DNA of 64,000 bases from Chlorobiota bacterium (GTDB taxonomy: Bacteria > Bacteroidota > Ignavibacteria > OLB7): positions 62,001-126,000 of the forward strand of contig JAQBOZ010000019.1 in the NCBI GenBank assembly GCA_028287785.1, given 5' to 3'. The number at the start of each line of letters is the position of its first letter. Positions within the stretch are counted from its first letter, which is position 1. Shown here piece by piece: positions 182 through 52,963 of this stretch. The position numbers and the translations under genes are program-made. Below the pieces are notes generated by a model. It was not told the origin of the DNA. It worked only from the letters and a program-made list of their open reading frames with translations, and did no database searches.

Positions 182-3100
182 TCAGCGTCCCTCCATCACA
201 ATCATCGTCAGTGTCTCCATCGTTCCGCCGCTCCTGAGTTGGTAATAGTAGACGCCATCCGGAATATCGCCGGGCTCCCATCTGACCTGATGCTCGCCCG
301 CCCCTTCCATCCCATCCAGCAGCGTGGCAACCACCCGGCCGCGGGCATCGAACACCCGGAGGCTTGTTGCGCCCTCCCGTTCCAGCGTGAAGCTGATGGT
401 GGTGAACGCGCCGCATGGGTTGGGGCTGTTTCCGCCGAGCATGGCCGAACCGGATGCCGGAGGAACGCGGTCGCGCGATTCCCTGACACCGGAGGCCGCG
501 CTCTTGGTCCAATGCCCGAAATAACAGGAAGATCTTCTTCCGATGCTGGTGAAGTTCCCGCCGGCATACAGCTCCATCTCATCCGCCGCCAGCGCGTAGA
601 TCTCACCGGCAGTGTAGTCGAGCGAGGGGGCCGCGCCGATATTCCGCCACGTGGTCCCATCCCAGCGGATCAGCCGCTCCGATCGCACATCGGCGAGCGT
701 CGAGAAGTTCCCGCCGATGTAGAGATCCTCCCTGCCGACCGCGATGGCATAGATCGCGCCGCCGCTGAAGACGCCGAAGCCGCCGGACCATCGCGTCCCG
801 TCCCACCGGGCAAGGTTTCTGATGGTGGTATCCGCCGTGGCCTGAAAATCACCGCCGACGTAGACCTCGCCGTTTCTGCCGGCCGCCACCGCGAAGATGC
901 TGTTGTTGAATCCCGCCCCCATCGCCCGCCACGCCGTCCCGTCCCAGCGGATGATATTCTCCGAGGAGACGCCCCCCGCGGCCGGGAAATATCCCGCCAC
1001 GTAGAGATCGGCCCCATAGGCGGCGAGCGACGTAACGTAGGTGAACTGCGGCCCGCCGCCGACGCCGCCGGCCATCGAGTTCCATGATCCCGAGGAGATA
1101 TTCCATCGGGCGATATGGTTCGACCGGACGCCCCCCGCCGTGGAGAAGCCGCCGCCGGCATAGAGGTCATCCCCGATGATCGCCACGGCGTAGGCATACG
1201 GAACGCCGCCGCCAAGCCCTTCCCTCAGCGCCGACCATCGGGCGCCGTCCCAGTGGGCGATGCCGTTGACGGCAAGATCGCCGACCTTCGTGAACTCGCC
1301 CCCGACATAGGCGCCACCGTTCGTGTCGACCGCGATCGAGCGAACCACGCCGTTGAACTCCTCCCCCACCGGAAGCCATTGCTCCCCATCCCAGTGTGCG
1401 ATGTTCCCCGTGCGAAGCCCGCCGACCACCGTAAACGCGCCGCCGATATAGATATCCCTCCCACGCATCCCGATGGCATATACCTGGCCGTACACGCCGT
1501 TGCGCGAATCGCTTCCAAGCGATGACCAGACATTGTTTCCATATGATGCGATAAACCGGGAGGATCCCCCACCGGCGGTTGTGAAGTCCCCGCCGGCATA
1601 CAGAGCATTCCCCCCGGCCGCCAGAGCGCGGATGAACCCATTGGCGCCGTTGAGCTCCCCGGCTCCCAGCGTGCTCCACCTGCTTCCGTCCCAGCGGGCG
1701 ATGTGCGTCATCGACGCATCGTTCAAGCTGTTCCTCGTGAACTCACCGCCGATGAAGACATCACTTCCCATCGCCACGATGCCGTGAACGGGGCCGTTCA
1801 GCGCGATGGCCGGCCCCCTCCAGCCCCCGCCCGCCGACCAGATGGCGAGGTTGCGCGATGCCCTGCCGCCGGCACTGGAGAACTCTCCGCCGGCCCAGAG
1901 ATCGCCCCGGCTGTCGAACGCCAGCGCGCTCACAAGGCCGTCCATGCCGTTGCCGCCGGTGGAATCCGTCAGCGCGCTCCACCCGCCCGATTCGCTCCAG
2001 GCCGCGATATTGGCCGCCGGAATATCTCCCGCTCGTGAGAAGCTTCCGCCAACGACCACACCGGTCGCGGTTGCGGCAAACGTGATGGCATATCGCGAGC
2101 TGGTGGTGCTCGCCAGACCGCTCCCCAGACCGTACCATTTCGATTCCTGCGTGTCCCATCGCGCCACGCCGCCAACATCATCGACAAGCCCGCCGACGCT
2201 GCTGAACGATCCTCCAACGTAGAGCCATCGGCCGGATGCCGCCAGCGCGTAGACATATGGATTGCCCCCCCCGACTCCCCCGGCGACATCGGACCAGCGC
2301 GCGCCGTCCCAGCGGGCAAGGCCACGCGCCGGAACGCCTGACGCGCTCTGGAAGACGCCCCCCACATAGAGCTGCGTCCCCACAACCGCCAGCGCCCGCA
2401 CAAACGACGCCGCGCTGTCGATGCCATCGCCAAGCGATGACCAGCGGCTGGTGATGGTATTGAAACAGGCCACGCGATCCGCCCGCACCGTGCCGGCTCT
2501 GGAAAAATCACCGCCGATGTACACATTGCTTCCGCTGATCGCAATCGCGAAGATGGAGCCATCCGTGCCGTTGTGGTTGGGGCGTTCGGCGGTATCGGCG
2601 ATCACCGGGTGCCAGCCGCTTCCGCTGAAGCCGGCAAGATGGTGCGCCGATACCGTTCCGGCACTGGTGAAATGTCCGCCGGCGAAGACCTCGCCATCGG
2701 CCACCGCCAGCGCCCAGACGAACGGGGCCGCCGCAGGCCCGGCCTGGCCGTCGTTGCCGTCGAGACGGCTGATCGCAATCGTCCCGACCCATTGCGTGGC
2801 ACCGTTGGAGCTGAGCCCCATGCCGGCCCCCATGCGCGACCACGATCCGCCGTTCCAGCGGGCGATGCAGTTCGTGCTGAGCCCGGATGTTGCCGAGAAT
2901 TCCCCGCCCACGTACACCGATCCATGATCGACGGCGATGGCATGGACGATACCATCGAACCCGTCACCCAGCGGGTGCCACGCGGAGCCATCCCACCGGG
3001 CGATGCCGCCGGCCGTCCCCCCTCCCGCCGCCGTGAACTCGCCGCCGACGTAGAGATCATCCCCATCGAACGCAAGCGCGTGCACGGCCCCGGTCGTCCC

Positions 3101-4060
3101 CTGCGCGAGCGGCAGCCACGTGCCGCTCGTGAGGTTGTACCGGCCGATATTGTTCATCGGAACGCTGTCGATGGAGCCGAACGCCCCGCCGACGTAGAGA
3201 TCATCCCCCCTGATCGTCATCGCGAGGATGTCGGGAGGATTGAAGCTGAAGAAGGGCTGGGATACATCGCCGATGCTGGACCAGGCGCTCCCGTTCCATT
3301 TCGCCAGGTATGGGATCTTGGCTTCCGTGGCCGTGTCGGTCACCGCAAAGAGGAAATCACCCCCCACATAGATATCGTTCCCATGAACCGCGATCGCATG
3401 AACATCCCCCCCGCGACGATAGCCGATGAGAAAGTGATCCACCCCCAGCCCGCCGACCGGATGCCAGGTCCCGCTGGTGATATTCCAACGGGCAATGCCG
3501 CGCGCCTCCCCGGTCCCGGCCGAGCTGATGATGCCCCCCACATAGAGGTCATCCCCCGCGATCGTCATCACCTTCACCGCTCCGGCAACTCCCTCCCGGA
3601 TCGCCGACCACTGCCGCGTTCTCCGGTTCCAGCGGGCGATATTGTTCACCTCCACGTTCCCGACCGAGCTGAACCTTCCTCCCACGAACACCTCGTCACC
3701 ATAAGTCGCGACGGCATAGACAATTCCCCCCGGCCCCGGAATGCCGAACCGATCGTCCCACCCCTCATCGCCCGGCACATGGCCGCGATGATGGTCGGCG
3801 GAATCGAGATTTGGATCGGCGGTGGAGAGCTTCTGGAAACGTGGCGTGCCGTCGGCATCGGTCACCATGCGCCAGCCGTTCGGATCAAGGCTTCCATTGA
3901 ACCGGCGGTTCAGATTCAGGGTGCCGTCGGGGTTGAGATAGCGTTCCAGCGGCTGGGCCGGCGTGGAGGCCGGAACCGTCTGAGCCGACACCGAATGAGC
4001 GCGCGGAAGGGCGGCAAGAAGGATCAACAGCACGATGTACAGCGTCGTGGCACGATTCAT
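182..4060 (-). CDS. Giant secreted propeller-like repeat protein with T9SS sorting domain
   Basis: About 1292 residues from the chosen ATG at 4060, which starts a clear signal peptide (MNRATTLYIVLLILLAALP, cut after SAQ). The frame is open further upstream to 4279, but that part looks untranslated. The body holds 21 copies of a repeat of about 55 residues with the pattern (L/V)Y(V/I/A)GG-x-F-(S/T)-x-A-G, followed by IARWDG, W and G positions. This resembles kelch/galactose-oxidase-like or delta-60-type propeller repeats. The last 80 or so residues (SPNPCG, LRVFDARGRVV, DGVYYYQLR) form a type A T9SS C-terminal sorting domain, so the protein should cross the outer membrane and be surface-attached or released. 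The ligand or enzymatic activity is unknown. I infer an extracellular binding or structural role. Confidence 0.85.
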   Translation of the reverse strand: MNRATTLYIVLLILLAALPRAHSVSAQTVPASTPAQPLERYLNPDGTLNLNRRFNGSLDPNGWRMVTDADGTPRFQKLSTADPNLDSADHHRGHVPGDEGWDDRFGIPGPGGIVYAVATYGDEVFVGGRFSSVGNVEVNNIARWNRRTRQWSAIREGVAGAVKVMTIAGDDLYVGGIISSAGTGEARGIARWNITSGTWHPVGGLGVDHFLIGYRRGGDVHAIAVHGNDIYVGGDFLFAVTDTATEAKIPYLAKWNGSAWSSIGDVSQPFFSFNPPDILAMTIRGDDLYVGGAFGSIDSVPMNNIGRYNLTSGTWLPLAQGTTGAVHALAFDGDDLYVGGEFTAAGGGTAGGIARWDGSAWHPLGDGFDGIVHAIAVDHGSVYVGGEFSATSGLSTNCIARWNGGSWSRMGAGMGLSSNGATQWVGTIAISRLDGNDGQAGPAAAPFVWALAVADGEVFAGGHFTSAGTVSAHHLAGFSGSGWHPVIADTAERPNHNGTDGSIFAIAISGSNVYIGGDFSRAGTVRADRVACFNTITSRWSSLGDGIDSAASFVRALAVVGTQLYVGGVFQSASGVPARGLARWDGARWSDVAGGVGGGNPYVYALAASGRWLYVGGSFSSVGGLVDDVGGVARWDTQESKWYGLGSGLASTTSSRYAITFAATATGVVVGGSFSRAGDIPAANIAAWSESGGWSALTDSTGGNGMDGLVSALAFDSRGDLWAGGEFSSAGGRASRNLAIWSAGGGWRGPAIALNGPVHGIVAMGSDVFIGGEFTRNSLNDASMTHIARWDGSRWSTLGAGELNGANGFIRALAAGGNALYAGGDFTTAGGGSSRFIASYGNNVWSSLGSDSRNGVYGQVYAIGMRGRDIYIGGAFTVVGGLRTGNIAHWDGEQWLPVGEEFNGVVRSIAVDTNGGAYVGGEFTKVGDLAVNGIAHWDGARWSALREGLGGGVPYAYAVAIIGDDLYAGGGFSTAGGVRSNHIARWNISSGSWNSMAGGVGGGPQFTYVTSLAAYGADLYVAGYFPAAGGVSSENIIRWDGTAWRAMGAGFNNSIFAVAAGRNGEVYVGGDFQATADTTIRNLARWDGTRWSGGFGVFSGGAIYAIAVGREDLYIGGNFSTLADVRSERLIRWDGTTWRNIGAAPSLDYTAGEIYALAADEMELYAGGNFTSIGRRSSCYFGHWTKSAASGVRESRDRVPPASGSAMLGGNSPNPCGAFTTISFTLEREGATSLRVFDARGRVVATLLDGMEGAGEHQVRWEPGDIPDGVYYYQLRSGGTMETLTMIVMEGR

Positions 4061-4427
4061 ATGGGTTCCGGGGAGTATCCTGCGCGATTGTTGGATAGGA
4101 TGTCGCTTGACATAACCGGCAATACGATATATCCTGTCAGGCATGGCAATGAACCGCGGCATCGGGATAAACTGAGGAGCAGCCACGCCGTGCCATGCGG
4201 ATATGAGGTAACAGTAATGGAATGGCCGGTCATTAAGACCACCAAACGGGCCGAATGTCGCGAAACCAATCGATTCCAATCATCCGGATCGCATGCCCCC
4301 CGTCGATTATTTCGCGGTCGGCCGCGGTCGCGTCATCGGTGCCCGAGGGGCCTCCAGCGTCGATTTCCTTATGTTCGTTTCTCCGGCTTCACAATGAACC
4401 CGGAACCAGCTTCGATATCACGATGAA

Positions 4428-5975
4428 ATGACACCGATACTCACTGCCGAAGAGATGCGCGCGGCCGACCGGCGGGCGATCGGGGAGATCGGCATCCCCG
4501 GCCCGGTGCTGATGGAGAACGCGGCGCGCGGCGCGACCGATATGCTGTCGCGGATGCTGGGGGGATTGCGCGGAAAACGGATCGCGATACTCTGCGGCAG
4601 GGGGAACAACGGCGGCGACGGGATCGCGATGGCGCGGCACGCGATCAACGCCGGAGCGCTGGCCGATGTGATCCTGATCCATCCGCCGGAGGAGCTATCG
4701 CCGGACGCAGCCCTGCAACACCGCATCCTTGCGGCGTTCGCCCCGGATAGCATCACTGTCTGGAGCGGCCCCCCCGGCGAAGGCAGGGCTTGCTACGATG
4801 CCGTTGTCGATGCCATGCTCGGCACAGGAACGGCAGGCTCGTTGCGCGAGCCGTACGGCGACGCGGTTGCATGGTCCGCCTCGGTAAATGCCGCAAAACT
4901 GGCGGTTGATATCCCGACCGGCATCGATTCCGATACCGGCGCCGCGGAGGGCCGGTTCTTCATGGCAACCGCGACGGCAACGATGGCGGCGCTCAAGCCG
5001 GGGCTGCTGCTGGGCCGGGGAGCCGGGGCGGCCGGAGATGTCAGGGTGATCGATATCGGGACGCCGGTTTCGTTATACGCCGATGCCGGGATTGCGCTGA
5101 TCGATGCCGAATGCGCGGCGGCGGGAATCGGGGAGATGAAGCAGGGGGGGAACAAATACGATCGCGGGAAGGTGCTTGTGATAGCCGGCTCCGGTGGGAT
5201 GACCGGCGCTGCGGTGATGGCATCGGAGGCGGCGCTGCACGCGGGCGCCGGGCTGACGCTGCTTGCATTGCCGGCCCGCGCACTGCCGATCCCGCAGTCG
5301 ATCGCGCCGGAGATCATGACGCTCTCCCTCCCATCGGACGAAGCCGGGGCGTTCGCGGCGGACGCGTTCGATGGGATCATCGGGAAATCGGAGAGTTACG
5401 GCGCCATCGCGGTGGGGCCGGGGCTTTCGCGTTCGCCGGAGGCAGCGCGCGCCGTGCGCGGTCTGGTGGCCGGCGGACGATCCGCGTGGATCGTTCTGGA
5501 TGCCGACGGGCTTAACGCGTTCGCGGGGGATGCCGATGCGCTGCGGGACCATGAAAGCGCGCTGGTGATCACGCCGCATCACGGCGAAATGGCCCGGCTC
5601 CTGGGGCTGAAGAGCGAAGAGATCGATAGTGATCCGGTCGGGCATGCCCGCGACGCGGCAAGGCGGATCAACGGCATCGTGGTGCTGAAGGGAGCCCCCA
5701 CCGTCGTTGCCGAGCCCGGCGGAAAAGCCTTTATCAACAGCGCCGGCAATCCGGGGATGGGAACCGGCGGCACCGGCGACGTTCTGACCGGCACGATAGC
5801 CGCGCTGCTGGCGCGGGGGGATTCAGCCGGAGGAACAGCCGGAGTGCTCGCGGCGGTCTATCTTCACAGCCTGGCCGGTGATCTGGCCGCCGCCGCGAAG
5901 AGCGTCCACGCGATCACCGCGACCGATATCATTCACTTCCTCCCGCACGCCTTTCGCGCGGTGACATCACGATGA
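4428..5975 (+). CDS. nnr: Bifunctional NAD(P)H-hydrate epimerase / ADP-dependent NAD(P)H-hydrate dehydratase
   Basis: The 515-residue protein repairs hydrated NAD(P)H. The N-terminal YjeF epimerase domain (about 1-215) interconverts the S and R hydrates and shows GRGNNGGDG at 57-65. The C-terminal YjeF/CARKD kinase-like domain (about 230-510) dehydrates the S form using ADP and carries NPGMGTGGTGD at 441-451, the nucleotide and anion-hole motif. Length and domain order match the usual bacterial fusion. The stop overlaps the start of the VanZ-like gene in an ATGA junction, so the two are probably translationally coupled. The protein is cytosolic. Confidence 0.95.
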   Translation: MTPILTAEEMRAADRRAIGEIGIPGPVLMENAARGATDMLSRMLGGLRGKRIAILCGRGNNGGDGIAMARHAINAGALADVILIHPPEELSPDAALQHRILAAFAPDSITVWSGPPGEGRACYDAVVDAMLGTGTAGSLREPYGDAVAWSASVNAAKLAVDIPTGIDSDTGAAEGRFFMATATATMAALKPGLLLGRGAGAAGDVRVIDIGTPVSLYADAGIALIDAECAAAGIGEMKQGGNKYDRGKVLVIAGSGGMTGAAVMASEAALHAGAGLTLLALPARALPIPQSIAPEIMTLSLPSDEAGAFAADAFDGIIGKSESYGAIAVGPGLSRSPEAARAVRGLVAGGRSAWIVLDADGLNAFAGDADALRDHESALVITPHHGEMARLLGLKSEEIDSDPVGHARDAARRINGIVVLKGAPTVVAEPGGKAFINSAGNPGMGTGGTGDVLTGTIAALLARGDSAGGTAGVLAAVYLHSLAGDLAAAAKSVHAITATDIIHFLPHAFRAVTSR

Positions 5976-8792: not shown

Positions 8793-10037
8793 CTACTCGT
8801 ACAGCAGATATCCCTCACGCGCCGCGATATAGTCCCTCTGCCTCCCCCGCCAGCCCTCCACGATGCTTCCAAAGCTGGCGCCGGCCAGGATCTTCCGGCG
8901 AATCTGATCGGTGCCACACACCTTGTCGAACATCTTCCAGCGATCCTCCGTCACCGCGTCGAACGGATGCCGCGCGTTGTAGAGATCGCGCAGCGTGGTG
9001 AGCAGGGCGATGGTCGCGGTGAACGGCTCGGCCATATCGCCGGTCCGCATCAGCTGAACCCCGCGGCAGAGCGTCCCGGTGGACATCCCGTAGAACGGCT
9101 TGTAGGCGGTCTTCCTGAAGTAGATGCCGCGCACTCCCATGCCGTTGAGCCGCAGAGCAAACGTATCGGCATCGATCCAGGGGGCCCCCACAAGCTCGAA
9201 CGGCAGCGTATAGCCGATGCCGATGCTTGCCACGCTGATCTCGCCGATCGGCCCGGTGGCGGCATTGGCAAACGCCGACTCGGGCGTCGGCACGTGAGGC
9301 GATGTCGGTATCCAGATCAGCCCCGTCTCGCGCCATCGCATCGACCGTCGCCAACCCTCCATCCTGATCACCGTCAGGTTGCACCTCCCGCGCCCCTCCA
9401 GCCATCGCTCGCCGTTTGCCATCGTCGCCAGCTCGCCGGCGGTAAGGCCGTAGACATAGGGGACCGGGACGATGCCGACGAACGACCGGAACGCGGAATC
9501 GAGGACGGGGCCGTCGATCACATCGCCGCCGATGGGGTTGGGTCGGTCGAGAATCACCACCGGAATGCCCGCATCGGCACACCCCTCCATCACCTTGATC
9601 ATCGTGGAGATGAACGTATAGCTCCTGACGCCGATATCCTGGATATCGTAGACCATCACATCGATGTTCCCCAGCATCGCCGGGGTCGGCTTCCGGGTGG
9701 CGCCGTAGAGGGAGAAGACCGGCAGGCCGCTCCGTGGCTCGATCTGGTCGCCAACGCTCTCGCCGGCCGCCGTCGAGGCGTCGATGCCATGTTCGGGGGC
9801 GAAGAGCGCGGTCAGGCGGCAACGGTCGGTGGCGAGAAATGCGTCGAGCGTGGACTGGCGGATGTCCCGCCGTACCGATGTCTGATTGATCACCAGGCCG
9901 ACCCGTTTGCCGCGCACCTGCGCGAACCCGTCGCGGACCAGCACATCGATGCCGGGGAGGACCTGGGCGCGGAGATGCGCGACGATGAAGAGGAGGAATA
10001 TCGTGATGATCGCGATGCGGCGTGGGACGCGGGCCAT
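8793..10037 (-). CDS. namZ: Exo-β-N-acetylmuramidase NamZ-like protein (DUF1343)
   Basis: This 414-residue exported protein has an N-terminal hydrophobic signal (IAIITIFLLFIVAHLRA). The DUF1343/NamZ domain includes GLVINQTS near 47-54, FAPEHGI near 79, DIQDIGVRSYTF and LDRPNPIGGDVIDGP. Characterised NamZ removes terminal MurNAc from peptidoglycan fragments in wall turnover or scavenging. It shares a single base with the upstream HAD gene (TGATG junction), so the two are coupled. A periplasmic location is expected. The family call is firm, but activity in this organism is inferred. Confidence 0.9.
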   Translation of the reverse strand: MARVPRRIAIITIFLLFIVAHLRAQVLPGIDVLVRDGFAQVRGKRVGLVINQTSVRRDIRQSTLDAFLATDRCRLTALFAPEHGIDASTAAGESVGDQIEPRSGLPVFSLYGATRKPTPAMLGNIDVMVYDIQDIGVRSYTFISTMIKVMEGCADAGIPVVILDRPNPIGGDVIDGPVLDSAFRSFVGIVPVPYVYGLTAGELATMANGERWLEGRGRCNLTVIRMEGWRRSMRWRETGLIWIPTSPHVPTPESAFANAATGPIGEISVASIGIGYTLPFELVGAPWIDADTFALRLNGMGVRGIYFRKTAYKPFYGMSTGTLCRGVQLMRTGDMAEPFTATIALLTTLRDLYNARHPFDAVTEDRWKMFDKVCGTDQIRRKILAGASFGSIVEGWRGRQRDYIAAREGYLLYE

Positions 10038-28584: not shown

Positions 28585-31500
28585 TCAGTTCAGCACGACC
28601 TTTCTGGTGATCGTCCCCTCGGCGCTCTTCACGGTCACGAAGTAGAGCCCGGCGGGATTTCCCGCCAGATCGAGGTTGATACGGTCGGCCGTCATATTCC
28701 TGAACGCGCGCTGGTAGATGGTCCGCCCAAGCACGTTCGTCACGGCGATCGTCAGATCCTCCCGCTTCGCCATCGCCAGATCCACCGTGAATTCGCCGGT
28801 CGTCGGGTTCGGGAAGACGCTGACGTGGCTCTTCTCGACGGCCGGCTCATCGGCATCCGCCAGATAATAACCGACGGTGAACTGCTGATAGATTTCGGTG
28901 CCGAAATCGGGGTTGAAGGTCTTGATAAGACCGCCGTTCGATGTATTTCTCACGCGCATAAAGCCGTTGCCGGCATCAGGATTGGCCCACCACGAAAGGC
29001 CATCGCCCCCCTGATCGACAAGGCGGAACTCATAGCAGCCGTTCGGCAGATTGAGCGTGTCCTTGTAGGTGGTGTTCCCATCCAGACTGCTCCGCTCGAA
29101 CACCACATTCCCAACCGCGTCCCGGATGACATAGGAATCGTCAGATCCCTGCGCGTTCGTCTTCAGCTCGAATATCACATTCGATGGATATTGCGGCGGA
29201 AAATCGTATGCCGACTGCATGATATCGTTATTGGCGTACTGATCGGCGCCATTATTCGGTGCGCCTACCGATACCTGGAACGGTGCATTGCCGGTTGCCC
29301 ATTCAAACGAGCCAAGCTCAACATCCTCGGTCTGAAGAAAATCGAGATGTCCCGTCCAGGTAAATGTGCTCTGCTTTGCCCCGGCGATGCCGTAGGTGAT
29401 CTTCAGCGCGGTCAGCGGCGTCGATCCGGTGTTTTTGATCGTGACGATCGGGTTGCTGCATATCGGGTTCATCCGGCGGTAGAGATCGGTTTTGCTCGGC
29501 GATTTGATATGCTCGACCGCGGCGTCGAGATCGAAGTTGGGCTTCGAATAACTCACCACCTGCGTCTCGATATCATAATACGGCGTGCTCCCCTGCCCGT
29601 TCCACGTATAATCCTCGATCGAATAATCGAACGATGCGGAATCCCCCTGCTTTATGTACGGCGTAATTTCCAGATCGTAGGTCGGGACATCGGAGCCGGG
29701 GCACCAGTTGGAACGGTTGTAGAGCCACGTTCCCCCCTGCGGATAGACAGGGTTCAGACCGCAATCATTCCGCCAGACCAGCGTGTCGAATTTCTTGCTC
29801 CCATTAACCGTGATGGTGTGAATTTTCGGGCAGAATTCCGAGCAGTTCTCCGTGCCGCCGAATCCATGCCCGGTCGTCCGCAGCTTGAACCGTGCGTTGG
29901 GCCCGTCGATCTTCACTTTTTTCTGCGTCAGGAAATTGCTGATCGGCGTGCTGGTCCCGTAGCTCGGGCCGCCATTCCAGACATTGGTGATGCTGACCGG
30001 ATCGCGCGGCGGAACTCCGGGGAAGAACTCGAAGGAGAGATCGACAAGCTCCTGACCGTTTCCGGCGGAGAGATGCACGGTGTCGTGCAGCAGCGTCTTG
30101 TAATCGGTGACATCGTACGTCCAGGTGAAGCCTTCGCCCAGATTCAGGCCGTTGCCGTACGGCGTGATATATCGCCCCAGCTCGAATTTATTCGTCACCT
30201 CGAATTTCTCGTAATAGGGGATTTTCACGAGGTGCAGCGTGGAGTCCGGCGGAACCGATACGGAATCGGTGGCGATGCCCAGCTTGTTGTACTTATAATT
30301 CCGGGAATAGGTCGGCCAGACCGTGAGCGTATCGGTGGGGCTTGCCGGATGCGCTGGATCGCGATAGAAGACGACCTGATACGGCGCATTTTCCACCGAG
30401 TCGATCGTCACTACCGTATCGACGGCGCCACGACCGGCCCACTGCTCGAATACCACGTTCGGGCGCGTTTTCAGAACGGAGAAATTCCTGAAGATATCGG
30501 CGCCGGCGACGATGTTCCGCTCGGGCGGGCCGGCCATATAACCGTCAAAACCATGCCCGCTGGAATCGGCGGTGCGCGTCATCCCCGCATCACCGAATTT
30601 ATAGTAGAGTCTGAGATTCGCGGCGAACGGATGGCTCGCGTCCAGATCCCTGTTCATCCACGCCTTGATCGTGGCGGCATCCACCTCCGCGTTCCATACC
30701 GCGAACTCATCGATATTCCCATCATAATTCGATGTCCCGTCACCGGCTGAACCGATTCGGAATTTGCTGATCCCCTCCATTGTTTTCTTCTTCCCGGATG
30801 CCGCGGCCCATGCCACGCCGTTCAGATAAATCCGCATATAGCCGGTTTTCACATTTTTCGTAAAAACCCAGTAATTCCATTTTCCCGCGAAGTCGCCATA
30901 CTTCGCCAGCTTGTTGACGCGATCGTAGCTGCCACCGGCGCCGGCGTCCCAGTAGACCGAGCTGTCGGACCAGGGAAGGTGAGCGTTGATAACGCGCCGG
31001 CCGAGCGAATCGAGTCCCTCGAAAATCGACTGCTGCTGCGGCTGGAATTTCGTGTTGCCGTACTGCCAGAACCCGATCGTAATGGCGCTGTCCACCGGAG
31101 CAAATGCGCCGGCCGGCACCGTGACATAATCCTTCCCCTCGAAATGGAGCATCCCGTTGCGCCCGGCGCCGAGCATGCCGGAGTTGAACGACGTATTCTC
31201 CGCTTTCACCGTGCTGCCGAAACCGGTCCCACCGCCGTCATCATCGAAACTGATATCGACGACGATATTGCTGGAGCCGTCCCAGGGAAATGCATCGGAA
31301 AAATTGAATGAATTCCACCCCGCCGTCGGCGTAAATCGATTGGTCGAATACACGGTGAACAGCCCGGTATTTTCATACCCTCCCGCCGAAAGCGAATCGA
31401 GCTTCGTCGATTTGAGCCTGATCGTCAGGTTGCGCATTGCGCTCCCATGAACTCCCACATCGAGACGCATTCCCGAAATGCTCCCGCCGGTCAGCCCCGC

Positions 31501-32016
31501 GGCCTTCAGCTCCGCCGCCTTCCAGAGAAACTGCGACCTGGCGACGTGGCTGGCCGCCGCGAACGGCGATGCCGACTCGACAGTTCCACTGCCAACCGAT
31601 GCCGTGGTCATCGATGTCGTGTCGAGACGGGTAAAGTATCGGCGGATCGTCGGGAAATAATTCCACGACGGCGATTTCATATAGCGCACAGGATCGGGAA
31701 GCGTATCCTCAACAGTATAATTCGAAGCGGAGCGGAGCGTGGAATCGATCCTGCCGGTTTTCTGATAGAGGTTGATATACTCCAGATAATCCCACTCGCC
31801 GCACTGCCCGCCGAACGGACAGCGGAGCTTGTAGTGCATCAGAATCTTTTCGAACCGCGAGGTATCCTTCGGAAAGACGAACATCCCATCCTGCGGCGAG
31901 GGGAAGGTAAACGTCTGAATGGTAAATGGCGGCGTCTGCGCCCGCAGCGGCGCGGCGGCGAACCATGCCGAGAGGAGAAGAACGGCGATCGCGCAACAGG
32001 TCGATAAGGATTTCAT
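28585..32016 (-). CDS. Large secreted PNGase F-like / LamG protein with T9SS sorting domain
   Basis: This 1143-residue protein starts with a signal peptide (CCAIAVLLLSAWFAAAP, cut after LRAQ). The first part (about 30-130, with KLRCPFGGQCGEWD) and the later block (about 520-870) look like PNGase F-type jelly-roll domains, which cleave N-glycans in characterised members. Between them is a concanavalin-like LamG domain (about 290-480: SAITIGFWQYGN, WNYWVFTKNVKTGYMRIYLNG, IDEFAVWNAEVD). The C-terminus (VFPNPTTGEFTVDLAM, GLYFVTVKSAEGTITRKVV) is a T9SS type A sorting domain. It should be cell-surface or extracellular; true glycosidase activity is unverified. Confidence 0.82.
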   Translation of the reverse strand: MKSLSTCCAIAVLLLSAWFAAAPLRAQTPPFTIQTFTFPSPQDGMFVFPKDTSRFEKILMHYKLRCPFGGQCGEWDYLEYINLYQKTGRIDSTLRSASNYTVEDTLPDPVRYMKSPSWNYFPTIRRYFTRLDTTSMTTASVGSGTVESASPFAAASHVARSQFLWKAAELKAAGLTGGSISGMRLDVGVHGSAMRNLTIRLKSTKLDSLSAGGYENTGLFTVYSTNRFTPTAGWNSFNFSDAFPWDGSSNIVVDISFDDDGGGTGFGSTVKAENTSFNSGMLGAGRNGMLHFEGKDYVTVPAGAFAPVDSAITIGFWQYGNTKFQPQQQSIFEGLDSLGRRVINAHLPWSDSSVYWDAGAGGSYDRVNKLAKYGDFAGKWNYWVFTKNVKTGYMRIYLNGVAWAAASGKKKTMEGISKFRIGSAGDGTSNYDGNIDEFAVWNAEVDAATIKAWMNRDLDASHPFAANLRLYYKFGDAGMTRTADSSGHGFDGYMAGPPERNIVAGADIFRNFSVLKTRPNVVFEQWAGRGAVDTVVTIDSVENAPYQVVFYRDPAHPASPTDTLTVWPTYSRNYKYNKLGIATDSVSVPPDSTLHLVKIPYYEKFEVTNKFELGRYITPYGNGLNLGEGFTWTYDVTDYKTLLHDTVHLSAGNGQELVDLSFEFFPGVPPRDPVSITNVWNGGPSYGTSTPISNFLTQKKVKIDGPNARFKLRTTGHGFGGTENCSEFCPKIHTITVNGSKKFDTLVWRNDCGLNPVYPQGGTWLYNRSNWCPGSDVPTYDLEITPYIKQGDSASFDYSIEDYTWNGQGSTPYYDIETQVVSYSKPNFDLDAAVEHIKSPSKTDLYRRMNPICSNPIVTIKNTGSTPLTALKITYGIAGAKQSTFTWTGHLDFLQTEDVELGSFEWATGNAPFQVSVGAPNNGADQYANNDIMQSAYDFPPQYPSNVIFELKTNAQGSDDSYVIRDAVGNVVFERSSLDGNTTYKDTLNLPNGCYEFRLVDQGGDGLSWWANPDAGNGFMRVRNTSNGGLIKTFNPDFGTEIYQQFTVGYYLADADEPAVEKSHVSVFPNPTTGEFTVDLAMAKREDLTIAVTNVLGRTIYQRAFRNMTADRINLDLAGNPAGLYFVTVKSAEGTITRKVVLN

Positions 32017-32178
32017 CGGCGACTACTACATGTTGAGATTGGAGGAGACAGGCCGGCGCTCCCCGTCAGGGACGAAGTGCCGGCATTGGTTCAGGATCGT
32101 GATGGCCGTGGGAGACGGCCGGAGGGATGACCGGAAGGTACGGATCAATACCGAAACGGGGACATCACGGAGACGATC

Positions 32179-32375
32179 GGTAGCAGCTCAATCTGAATCA
32201 ATGCTCTGGTTCGGTTCGGCTGAACGATCATTGATCCCCGTATCGCTCTTCAACTTCCAGAGGAGCGCACCGGTTGCAGCAATGCCACGTCCTCCATGAT
32301 ATCAAGCTCCATCGGAGCGTACCATTCCGTCTGGATATGATGATTTCAACCATCCTCTCAAACTGAGTCACCAGC
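32179..32375. mobile_element. MITE-like element type B, short copy at the priA stop
   Basis: About 197 bases flanked by the direct repeat AGACGATC (32171-32178 and 32376-32383), an 8-bp target duplication. Ends resemble the longer copy at 52646 (left GGTAGCAGCTCAATCTGAATC-like, right CTCAAACTGAGTCACC). The interior shares AAGCTCCATCGGAGCGTACC and CGCACCGGTTG; the second palindrome arm is missing, so this copy has an internal deletion. The right duplication overlaps the priA stop codon (32382-32384). There is no transposase. Confidence 0.75.
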
Positions 32376-32381
32376 AGACGA

Positions 32382-34904
32382 TCAGCCCATCCCCTGCGCG
32401 TCCACGTCGACGATGACCTGCACGGAGCTTTTGCCGTGATCGGCGCTGTAGCGCTCGTATGCCTCGGAAAAAATCCTGTAGAAGATCTTCCCACCGGGAT
32501 CGGTCACGCGGCTGTTCTTGATCACGATCTGATAGCGATACTGATTCCTGAGCTTCTCGATCAGCGCCGTGACAGGCCCCATGATATCCATCTCCGGCGT
32601 CCTGCTGGGGAGCAGCCCCCGGAACAGCCGCGCGTGCTTCTCGGTTTCCCGCTGATCCTCGGAGCGGAACTCCACCACGATAAACCGGGCAAACGGGGGA
32701 TAATTCAGCTCGCGCCGGGTTGCCAGCTCGTCGTTGTAGAGCATCGCGTAGTTCTTGAAAAAGCTCGCCTGGATGGCGGGATGCTCGGGATGCGCCGTCT
32801 GTATCACCACCTCCCCCTCCATATTGCTCCGGCGACCTGCCCGCCCCGCCACCTGCGTCAGAAGCTGGTAGGCGCGCTCGCTGGCGCGGAAATCGGGAAG
32901 GAGAAGCTGCGTGTCGGCGGAGATGACCCCCACCAGCGAGACGCGGGAGAAGTCCAGCCCCTTGGCGACCATCTGGGTGCCGAGGAGGATATCGATCTCC
33001 CCGGTCGCGAACGCCGCCAGGATCTCCCTGTGCGCCCCCTTTCTCATGGTGGTGTCAAGATCCATCCTGAGCATCTTCACCCCCGGCAACTGCGCCATCA
33101 GCTCCTCCTCCACCTTCTGCGTCCCGACCCCCGGCTGGCGGAGATCGTGATGCCCGCACATCTCGCAGCGGCGCTCCGCCTTCCGCATGAAGCCGCAGTA
33201 ATGGCAGTGCAGCTCCTCCAGCTTCTTGTGATAGGTCAGCGTCACGGCGCAGTGGGGGCAGGTCGGGGAATGAGCGCATGATGTGCACTCCAGCCGGGTG
33301 GCGAACCCACGGCGGTTCTGGAGGATGATCACCCCCTCCTTCCGCTCCACCCGCGCGCGGATATCCCCGAGCAGACGGGCGGAGATGGCCCCGCGCATCA
33401 GGTTCTGCTTCCTCGCGGTGACGGTATCCACCACAACGATCTTCGGCTCGCGGGCGTTATCCACCCGTTCGCGCAGCTCCAGCAGCGTGTACTTCCCGCG
33501 CTGGGCGTTGTAATACGATTCGATCGATGGCGTGGCGCTCCCCAGCACCGCCACGGCCCCTGACAACTGCGCGCGGACGATGCCGGCATCGCGGGCGTTG
33601 TAGCGCGGCTGCGCGTCGTACTGCTTGTAGCTCCCCTCATGCTCCTCATCCACCACCACGATGCCGATATTCCGCAACGGCGCGAAGAGCGCGGAGCGCG
33701 CCCCGATCACCACGTCGCACCCGCCGGAAGCGGCCCGCCGCCAGCCGTCGTACCGTTCCCCCGGCGACATCCGGCTGTGCAGCAGCACGATCCTGTCGCC
33801 GAACACCCCTCGGAACCGCTCCACGAGCTGGAGGGTCAGCGTGATCTCCGGCACCAGCAGCAGCGACTTCTTCCCCGCCGCTATCGCGTGCCGGATGGCC
33901 TCGATATAGACCTGCGTCTTTCCCGATCCGGTGACGCCGTGCAGCAGAAATGTCTTGAACTCCTTCTGGTCCATCGCCCCGGTGATCGCGTCGATCGCCG
34001 CGCGCTGGGCATCGTTCGGGATGATTCCCCCCTCGTGCGGCTCCAGCGTCCGCCCCCCCTGCGTCTCCTCATCGGCAAGCATCTCCTCGCGCGAGACCTC
34101 GATATCCTCCAGCTCGATCGCCCCGCGCGCGGCAAGCCCCTTCAGCGCGGAGTCGGAGGCATCGGCGGCTTCCAGGAGATCGGCGGCGAAGACGAAATCG
34201 TTTCCCACGCGCATCGACTGCGTGTAGAGAAGAAGCATGATGGCCGCCTGCTTCGGCGCGGAACGATCCAGCTCGTCGAACAGTTCGTGGATCGATTCCT
34301 CATCATCGAACAGCTCCGGCGCTATCCTGGCGCCCCGCACGGTCTTCGGCGCCGAGCGCTTTCCGCGCTCCATCTTCCTGATGATGAACCCCTTTTCCTC
34401 CAGCGATGCGAGCTGCGTGTAGAGCGCATCAGCCCCAACCTTCCGCTGGAGATAGGTGATGGTGATCCCCTTGGGATGATCGGCAAGGGCGGCGATGATG
34501 GCGGCCTGGCGCGGCGCGCTTCTGCGGAGCGCGGGAAGCTCCTCGAGCACCTCCGGCCCGGCCAGCGCTATCCGCTGCGTGGACTCCGGGGTCATCCCCT
34601 GCGGCATCATCGAGCGGAGCGTCTCGCCGATCGGCGAGACGTAGTAGTGGGTCATCCAGTCGGCGAAGCGGAGCATCTCGGGGCTGAAGAGCGGCTCGGG
34701 ATCGAGGAGATCGAGGATCGCGCGGACCTTTGCCAGATCGGTTTCCGAACGTTCCTCCACGATCACGCCGGTCAGCGTCCGCCGGCCGAACGGAACGGAG
34801 ACGCGCATGCCGAGCAGATCGAGATCGCGCCATTCCTCGGGGACCGAGTAGGTGAACGTCTTGAAGAGCGGGATGGGTAGAGCTACCTGAACAAAGTCTG
34901 ACAT
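32382..34904 (-). CDS. priA: Primosomal protein N' (replication restart helicase PriA)
   Basis: This 840-residue superfamily 2 3'-5' DNA helicase restarts stalled forks. It has the N-terminal DNA-binding region (FTYSVPEEW, FGRRTLTGVI), Walker A LLHGVTGSGKTQVY near 315, DEEH near 420, LGSATPS near 450, helicase motifs V/VI (GTQMVAKGLDF, QVAGRAGR) and the zinc region with eight Cys (CTSC...CPHC...CHYC...CEMC near 540-590). It is normal length for Bacteroidota-like PriA. A MITE-like element abuts its stop codon and a palindrome lies upstream. Confidence 0.96.
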   Translation of the reverse strand: MSDFVQVALPIPLFKTFTYSVPEEWRDLDLLGMRVSVPFGRRTLTGVIVEERSETDLAKVRAILDLLDPEPLFSPEMLRFADWMTHYYVSPIGETLRSMMPQGMTPESTQRIALAGPEVLEELPALRRSAPRQAAIIAALADHPKGITITYLQRKVGADALYTQLASLEEKGFIIRKMERGKRSAPKTVRGARIAPELFDDEESIHELFDELDRSAPKQAAIMLLLYTQSMRVGNDFVFAADLLEAADASDSALKGLAARGAIELEDIEVSREEMLADEETQGGRTLEPHEGGIIPNDAQRAAIDAITGAMDQKEFKTFLLHGVTGSGKTQVYIEAIRHAIAAGKKSLLLVPEITLTLQLVERFRGVFGDRIVLLHSRMSPGERYDGWRRAASGGCDVVIGARSALFAPLRNIGIVVVDEEHEGSYKQYDAQPRYNARDAGIVRAQLSGAVAVLGSATPSIESYYNAQRGKYTLLELRERVDNAREPKIVVVDTVTARKQNLMRGAISARLLGDIRARVERKEGVIILQNRRGFATRLECTSCAHSPTCPHCAVTLTYHKKLEELHCHYCGFMRKAERRCEMCGHHDLRQPGVGTQKVEEELMAQLPGVKMLRMDLDTTMRKGAHREILAAFATGEIDILLGTQMVAKGLDFSRVSLVGVISADTQLLLPDFRASERAYQLLTQVAGRAGRRSNMEGEVVIQTAHPEHPAIQASFFKNYAMLYNDELATRRELNYPPFARFIVVEFRSEDQRETEKHARLFRGLLPSRTPEMDIMGPVTALIEKLRNQYRYQIVIKNSRVTDPGGKIFYRIFSEAYERYSADHGKSSVQVIVDVDAQGMG

Positions 34905-49121: not shown

Positions 49122-49425
49122 GGCAGATGAGAGCAACTCGGTTTAAATCCACCCTCAGGTATGCTGAACGGTCATCCATCAACGATCTCTTCATCGCTCT
49201 TCAAGCTCCGTAGGAGCGCACCGGTTATAGTAACGATGCCCCTATTTTCACTCAAGCTCCATCGGAGCGTACCATATAAATGCGGGGATGGCACGCTCCG
49301 ATGGAGCTTTAGATCATGGAAGAGGTGATATTACCACAACCGGCTCGCCCCGATGGGCTATGAAGACTGATGCTTCACTCAGCGTACGTCGAAGACGCTT
49401 ATCTCAACCTGAGTCACTGCCGAGC
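49122..49425. mobile_element. MITE-like element type B, degenerate copy
   Basis: It contains the same nested palindrome as the intact copy at 52646. AGCTCCATCGGAGCGTACC is followed by GGCACGCTCCGATGGAGCTT; outside it lie CTTCAAGCTCCGTAGGAGCG and CCGGCTCGCCCCGATGGGCT. The ends are GGCAG...ACTCGGTTTAAATCC and TCAACCTGAGTCACTGCC, degraded relative to GGTAGTGACTCAGTTTG. I see no matching target duplication at this copy. It fills part of the 500-base gap 49013-49510. Confidence 0.6.
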
Positions 49426-52027: not shown

Positions 52028-52645
52028 ATGATTTCTTCTCATGACGATTTTTTCTTCCGGCGTTGCTCACAGCCGGCGGCTTCCTCTCATGATATTTTTT
52101 TTCTTCCGGCGTTGCTCATAACTTCCACCGTGTATATCGCTGCATGCGGTGGTGACCCTCCTTCCAACAGCAACCGTTCTCCCGATCATGCCGCTCCCCC
52201 TCTCGCTCCAGCCGAAGCGATGTCGTGTTCTATTTCGCCCACGGCCTTCAGACAATGTATTTAATGTCGCAACATCACGCGGATCTGGCGCCGGCAACCA
52301 GCACGAATATAATTGGCCCCGGCTATCTCCCGCCCCAGGCTGAGCTGGATGGACTGCGCCGGCAGAACAAACTGCGTGATCTGGGATCGAGGATCATTAT
52401 GGGTCTGGAGGCTCATGGCTTCACGATCGACGACAGCAGCGGCTCCACAACGTACTGGGAATGGAAACGTATTCCGTGCTGATTGAATCCACACGGCCCT
52501 ACAAGGGCATAACGATGGTGACAGCGCTTGATACAACCGTCAGGATCACGCCCGGAATGATGGATCTTCCAAAGGATGTGCCCGTGACGGATATCGAGTC
52601 GTATCGGCGCATGCATCAGGACTCCCCGCCTGATACCGCAATCGT

Positions 52646-52954
52646 GGTAGTGACTCAGTTTGAATCCAGTATTCCATCTGATTAACAATCAACGATCGGC
52701 GATCCATGCTTCACTCTTCAAGCTCCGTAGGCGCGCGCCGGTTGTAGCACCAATGCTCCCATCTCCCGCTCAAGCTCCATCGGAGCGTACCATCCCCGCA
52801 TCCGTGCCGAACGGTACGCTCCGATGGAGCTTCAGATCATCGAAGACGTGGCATCGCTACAACCGGTACGCCCCGATGGGGCTGGAAGGAGAGATGCCGA
52901 ATGCCCTCGATGAGTCCGAACAGCATGAACCGTATCCCAAACTGAGTCACTACC
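52646..52954. mobile_element. MITE-like element type B, 309 bp, with 8-bp target duplication
   Basis: Terminal inverted repeats GGTAGTGACTCAGTTTG and CAAACTGAGTCACTACC bound a 309-base element without coding capacity. The flanks GCAATCGT at 52638-52645 and 52955-52962 are a perfect 8-bp duplication. Inside is a 20-bp perfect inverted repeat (52772-52791 with 52813-52832, containing CTCCATCGGAGCG) and weaker outer arms, so the whole element could fold into a long hairpin. Excision of the element plus one duplication joins the flanking coding frames. Confidence 0.9.
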
Positions 52955-52963
52955 GCAATCGTC

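Follow-up and report, generated by a model that had tools for sequence, protein, structure and literature searches.

What is the short non-coding stretch that separates priA, a gene of DNA-replication restart, from the next gene in this Chlorobiota genome, and how did it come to lie there? We examined it in a window of 64,000 nucleotides, the whole stretch of DNA that was analysed, and in the assembly to which the window belongs. The best explanation, to which we give a probability of about 0.9, is that it would be an old, non-autonomous MITE with divergent IS1-family ends, which was mobilised in trans and inserted between the two genes. The coordinates of the relevant features are collected in Table 1.

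Table 1. Features around the insertion, other family copies in the window, and complete transposase-bearing elements of other organisms
Feature	Source	Position	Strand	Length	Duplication	Remark
Decayed, internally deleted MITE copy	window	32179..32375	.	197 bp		core matches many genome copies
Left target-site duplication	window	32171..32178	.	8 bp	AGACGATC	read directly; abuts family terminus
Right target-site duplication	window	32376..32383	.	8 bp	AGACGATC	last two bases are part of the priA stop
Left terminal inverted repeat	window	32179..32196	+	18 bp		5/18 mismatches to GGTAGTGACTCAGTTTGA
Right terminal inverted repeat	window	32358..32375	-	18 bp		2/18 mismatches to GGTAGTGACTCAGTTTGA
priA (primosomal protein N')	window	32382..34904	-	840 aa		intact C-terminus; Pfam PriA_3primeBD, PriA_C, Zn_ribbon_PriA
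Sister MITE copy	window	52646-52954	.	309 bp	GCAATCGT at 52638-52645 and 52955-52962	
Third, older MITE copy	window	49129-49421	.	~293 bp	no longer recognisable	75% identical to consensus
L135	Verrucomicrobia			2536 bp	CATTCCGC	complete, with transposase
L217	viral contig	1656-5041		3386 bp	CAGTCGGG	complete, with transposase
L251	Mesorhizobium loti plasmid	1296-4665		3370 bp	exact, 8 bp	annotated IS1 family transposase
L252	Acidiphilium multivorum plasmid	1767-4400		2634 bp	exact, 8 bp	annotated IS1 family transposase
L253	Hoeflea plasmid	1055-5278		4224 bp	exact, 8 bp	annotated IS1 family transposase

The first-pass annotation had described a 197-base deleted copy with the 8-bp AGACGATC on both sides, and had called it the second copy of one MITE family. 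Both statements were borne out by evidence from across the genome. The two AGACGATC copies lie flush with the terminal inverted repeats of the copy. For any one spacing between 150 and 349 bases, an 8-mer is repeated by chance at about 1 in 15,069 positions of the 64-kb window. We found that the copy has the properties of a MITE: it is non-coding, ends in inverted repeats, is too short for a transposase, carries an exact 8-bp duplication of the length that is constant in its family, and has many dispersed relatives (201 termini in the genome). No Rfam family was found in the window. Compared with the consensus of the 309-bp form, the copy is 112 bp shorter and equal at 127 of 194 aligned positions (65.5%), whereas the best 18 rows, in which one sequence is present twice, agree with it at 91-96%. 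Positions 32262-32327 match one strand at 89% and 32216-32328 match the other at 72%; because the element is palindromic, it is uncertain which arm was lost. Its folding is no better than that of shuffled sequence (z -1.0). Judged from its sequence, the copy behind priA is old and among the more decayed of the family, and two features count against the MITE reading, the 5 mismatches among the 18 bases of its left terminus and the consensus match of 65.5%. The sister copy, with 0 and 1 mismatches to GGTAGTGACTCAGTTTGA at its termini, is the younger of the two and forms a single long hairpin, with a folding energy of -141.6 kcal/mol (z -9.0). The window also holds a third family copy, absent from the first-pass annotation.

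Across the 4,749,904-base assembly, 201 sites match the 18-bp terminus GGTAGTGACTCAGTTTGA with up to 3 mismatches (104 forward, 97 reverse), against a single match to the reversed pattern, and the genome therefore holds about 100 copies. In the loci retrieved, 58 end pairs were formed from nearest ends with at most 4 mismatches each and 100-600 bp apart, with no duplication filter; a few pairs share one end or carry a variant terminus. An exact 8-bp repeat flanks 21 of the 58, and 31 have one with no more than one mismatch, compared with 2 and 6, respectively, of 3306 swapped-flank controls. At each of the other lengths, 4-7 and 9-12 bases, there were 0 or 1 exact repeats. The remaining 27 pairs, some of them young copies, lack the duplication or differ in it at two or more bases. 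The priA-side copy falls outside the 58 because of the 5 mismatches in its left end, and it was recovered when looser ends (up to 5 mismatches) were combined with a required duplication (38 distinct elements, 23 of them exact). To judge by these flanks, the 8-bp duplication is a property of the family. The first-pass annotation had concluded the same from two duplications; the conclusion stands on the 31 of 58 pairs within one mismatch, although two alone would be thin. A different account, in which the feature is no former transposon but a REP/BIME-like palindromic repeat with a chance pair of 8-mers around it, would suit the palindromic arms of the family, the long hairpin of the sister copy and the degraded left end at priA. 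However, the 8-mers directly adjoin termini that some 200 further sites share, and 8 bp is the recurrent length in the family. At the family level this account is refuted by the duplication counts obtained here and in other species, and we regard it as highly improbable.

The G+C content of the duplications (59.8%) is close to that of the window (60.1%) and gives no sign of an AT preference. Only 41% of 32 insertions lie in a frame of at least 150 aa, compared with 90% of 400 random window points; insertions therefore survive mainly outside genes. Rearrangement between copies was also considered. Exact reciprocals were found in 3 of 6670 end pairs (0.1 expected), and we do not claim rearrangement because one of these pairs is neighbouring, one includes a copy that still has its own intact duplication, and as many (3) turned up in the same-sense control. 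Many contigs of the genome (G000), namely C2, C4, C7, C10, C11, C16, C18, C22, C23, C24, C25, C30, C31, C33 and C35, end inside or at MITE copies, and the family may account for many contig ends of this assembly.

Next to the element, the priA stop codon occupies 32382-32384. The reported overlap of the right duplication with the priA TGA is real and amounts to two bases (32382-32383). The further statement that the insertion hit the precise gene end while keeping the stop is correct as to the stop and slightly too strong as to the position, since the element begins 6 bases beyond it. In all four relatives compared (63-73% identical proteins) the C-terminus of PriA ends at the same place, and two of the four share its last residues, DAQGMG; the stop is thus ancestral and the protein unchanged by the insertion. 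No empty site was found in the four nearest genomes (G001-G004), where the priA 3' flank is not alignable, and both GATCGTCT and the family terminus are absent within 600 bases of the priA stop in all four.

The next gene (28585-32016, minus strand) has its start codon 162 bp from the element. This position, directly behind priA and ahead of a start codon, would suit an element kept as a 3' end or regulator for either gene. Against such a role, the predicted fold of the 197-bp copy does not surpass that of shuffled sequence, the minus strand of 32010-32400 has no match to a Bacteroidota-type promoter motif, and the copy is among the more decayed of the family; we consider this explanation very unlikely, if a shade less so than a chance pair of 8-mers. 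The fold and the promoter-motif scan lend no support to a role as terminator or promoter. Neither an effect of the element on priA nor any function of this copy is supported.

As a MITE, the element would have relied on a transposase from elsewhere. No resident parent was found in 40 stretches around chosen terminus places and other loci, a subset of the 201 termini; with pairs up to 3.5 kb tested, none longer than 485 bp had a duplication. When the genome was searched for transposases, a single IS1-type fragment was found, broken by two stops, and there is no family terminus within 5 mismatches near it. An IS1-derived MITE usually shares its genome with a functional parent, although its definition does not strictly require one. 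A living IS1-type copy could be missing, because the assembly is about 95% complete. No intact IS1-family transposase having been found here, the mover was inferred from other species.

Of 61 genomes, 2 contain the 309-bp sequence itself: the present one and, as a weak and partial match, a second from its genus. Within the class, 38 of 197 genomes have the terminus (up to 2 mismatches), with 153 occurrences here and at most 13 in any other. In the same-genus genome G001 a related terminus, often GGTAGTGACTCAGTTTGC or near it, is present 13 times, a sign that the sister species may have a MITE family of its own. Outside the class, the exact terminus is also present in at least 97 genomic stretches (from Acidobacteria, Verrucomicrobia, Chitinophaga, Proteobacteria and others), as well as in 5 viral contigs. 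Among the matches listed, 105 termini are exact, and 51 of these are paired with a second end and flanked by 8-bp duplications with at most one mismatch, against 0 in the displaced control. When 85 such loci were scanned, most duplication-flanked elements measured 90-590 bp and two were complete (L135 and L217).

Together with three plasmid elements, these make five complete elements, all from other organisms, in which an IS1-family transposase lies between GGTAGTGNNTCAGTTTGA-type ends (0-2 mismatches per end) with exact 8-bp duplications. The ends expected of an IS1-derived MITE are thus found on IS1-family elements, in other organisms. PF03400 (DDE_Tnp_IS1) was above cut-off in all five transposases, and the two tested with the NCBIfam IS1 model, those of L135 and L217, scored below its cut-off of 100 bits, at 58 and 72; the IS1 assignment is distant. 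This divergent group may correspond to ISMhu11-like IS1 members. The plasmid relatives come from 4 of the 21 records with a match; the fourth (Methylocapsa) has the ends without a matching duplication, and one end among the other three reads GGTAATG, the remainder being GGTAGTGNNTCAGTTTGA-type. Various cargo was observed: HTH and IrrE-like peptidase proteins in L251 and L253, a ClpP-like SDH protease in L252, and in L217 a P63C-domain protein and a further protein that we take to be an ABC-type binding protein. Within the class, relative G040 has an element with IS1-type remnants, GGTAGTG ends and one duplication mismatch, and relative G034 has one with GGTAGTG ends (GGTAGTGTCCTAATT) and an exact duplication; several other loci of class relatives gave no clear end pair. 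A divergent IS1-family transposase is the likely mover of the family.

The mover could instead have been an IS3-type element, a suggestion that arises from the variant terminus GGTAGTGTCTCAGTTTGA at an IS3-type remnant. Two small GGTAGTGTCTCAGTTTGA elements lie in locus L074 (G000:C16), one (522-699) bordering the end of an orfB-like, presumably IS3-type transposase remnant, the other (9705-9843) with a possible 3-bp repeat, GTT. However, the complete IS1-family elements L252 and L253 bear GGTAGTGTCTCAGTTTGA with exact 8-bp duplications, the family here duplicates 8 bp, and the remnant may merely have been hit by such an element; no intact IS3 element was seen that combines such ends with a duplication of 8 bp. 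Given GGTAGTGTCTCAGTTTGA on L252 and L253, we set IS3 aside as the mover and give it very little credence.

Known systems offer partial parallels to an IS1-family MITE. In the passages of PMC6382973 on ISAba3, this IS1-family element has ends GGTGGTGTTTCA... and 8-bp duplications. The present family resembles ISAba3 and the IS1 family, as described there, in its ends (GGTNGTG..TCA), its 8-bp duplications and the DDE_Tnp_IS1 domain of its putative parents; unlike the IS1 family, the MITE here is without transposase, and the putative parents are 2.5-4.2 kb long with extra genes and a transposase that is a distant IS1 member. MITEAba12 of Acinetobacter, according to the passages that describe it, is likewise short and non-coding with inverted-repeat ends; its duplication has the length of that of its parent IS, and 40% of 90 copies keep it. 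It differs in its unrelated GGCTTTGTTGCA-type ends, 9-bp duplications, length of 113 bp and resident parent, ISAba12. The 187-bp MITE of Microcystis aeruginosa, in the relevant passages of PMC11448079, is similarly hairpin-forming, present in tens of copies and mostly intergenic, but its ends match the ISL3 family, not IS1. No paper was found in the open-access literature for a 15-base piece of the terminus, and an IS1-family MITE is undescribed in the passages of PMC6382973, PMC11448079 and PMC3718332.

The insertion at priA can be pictured as follows. A transposase would have acted in trans, from an autonomous IS1-family element that may since have been lost or broken, or may be missing from the assembly. 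A staggered cut followed by fill-in is established transposition chemistry, and an 8-bp cut of this kind would have left the AGACGATC repeats that are seen on both sides. Comparison with the other copies shows that a net loss of about 112 bp and point changes followed insertion, while the duplication stayed intact. The insertion was probably tolerated because it lies outside coding sequence.

A single insertion of this kind is ordinary; the copy number is the unusual part. Through its ends and duplication length, the MITE family links about 100 repeats in this genome to a single group of transposases, and with them small elements from several phyla. We hold the odds evenly balanced on a broader reading, in which the GGTAGTGNNTCAGTTTGA terminus would mark divergent, cargo-bearing IS1-family transposons that seed separate MITE families across many phyla, the family here having reached about 100 copies and outlived its transposase.
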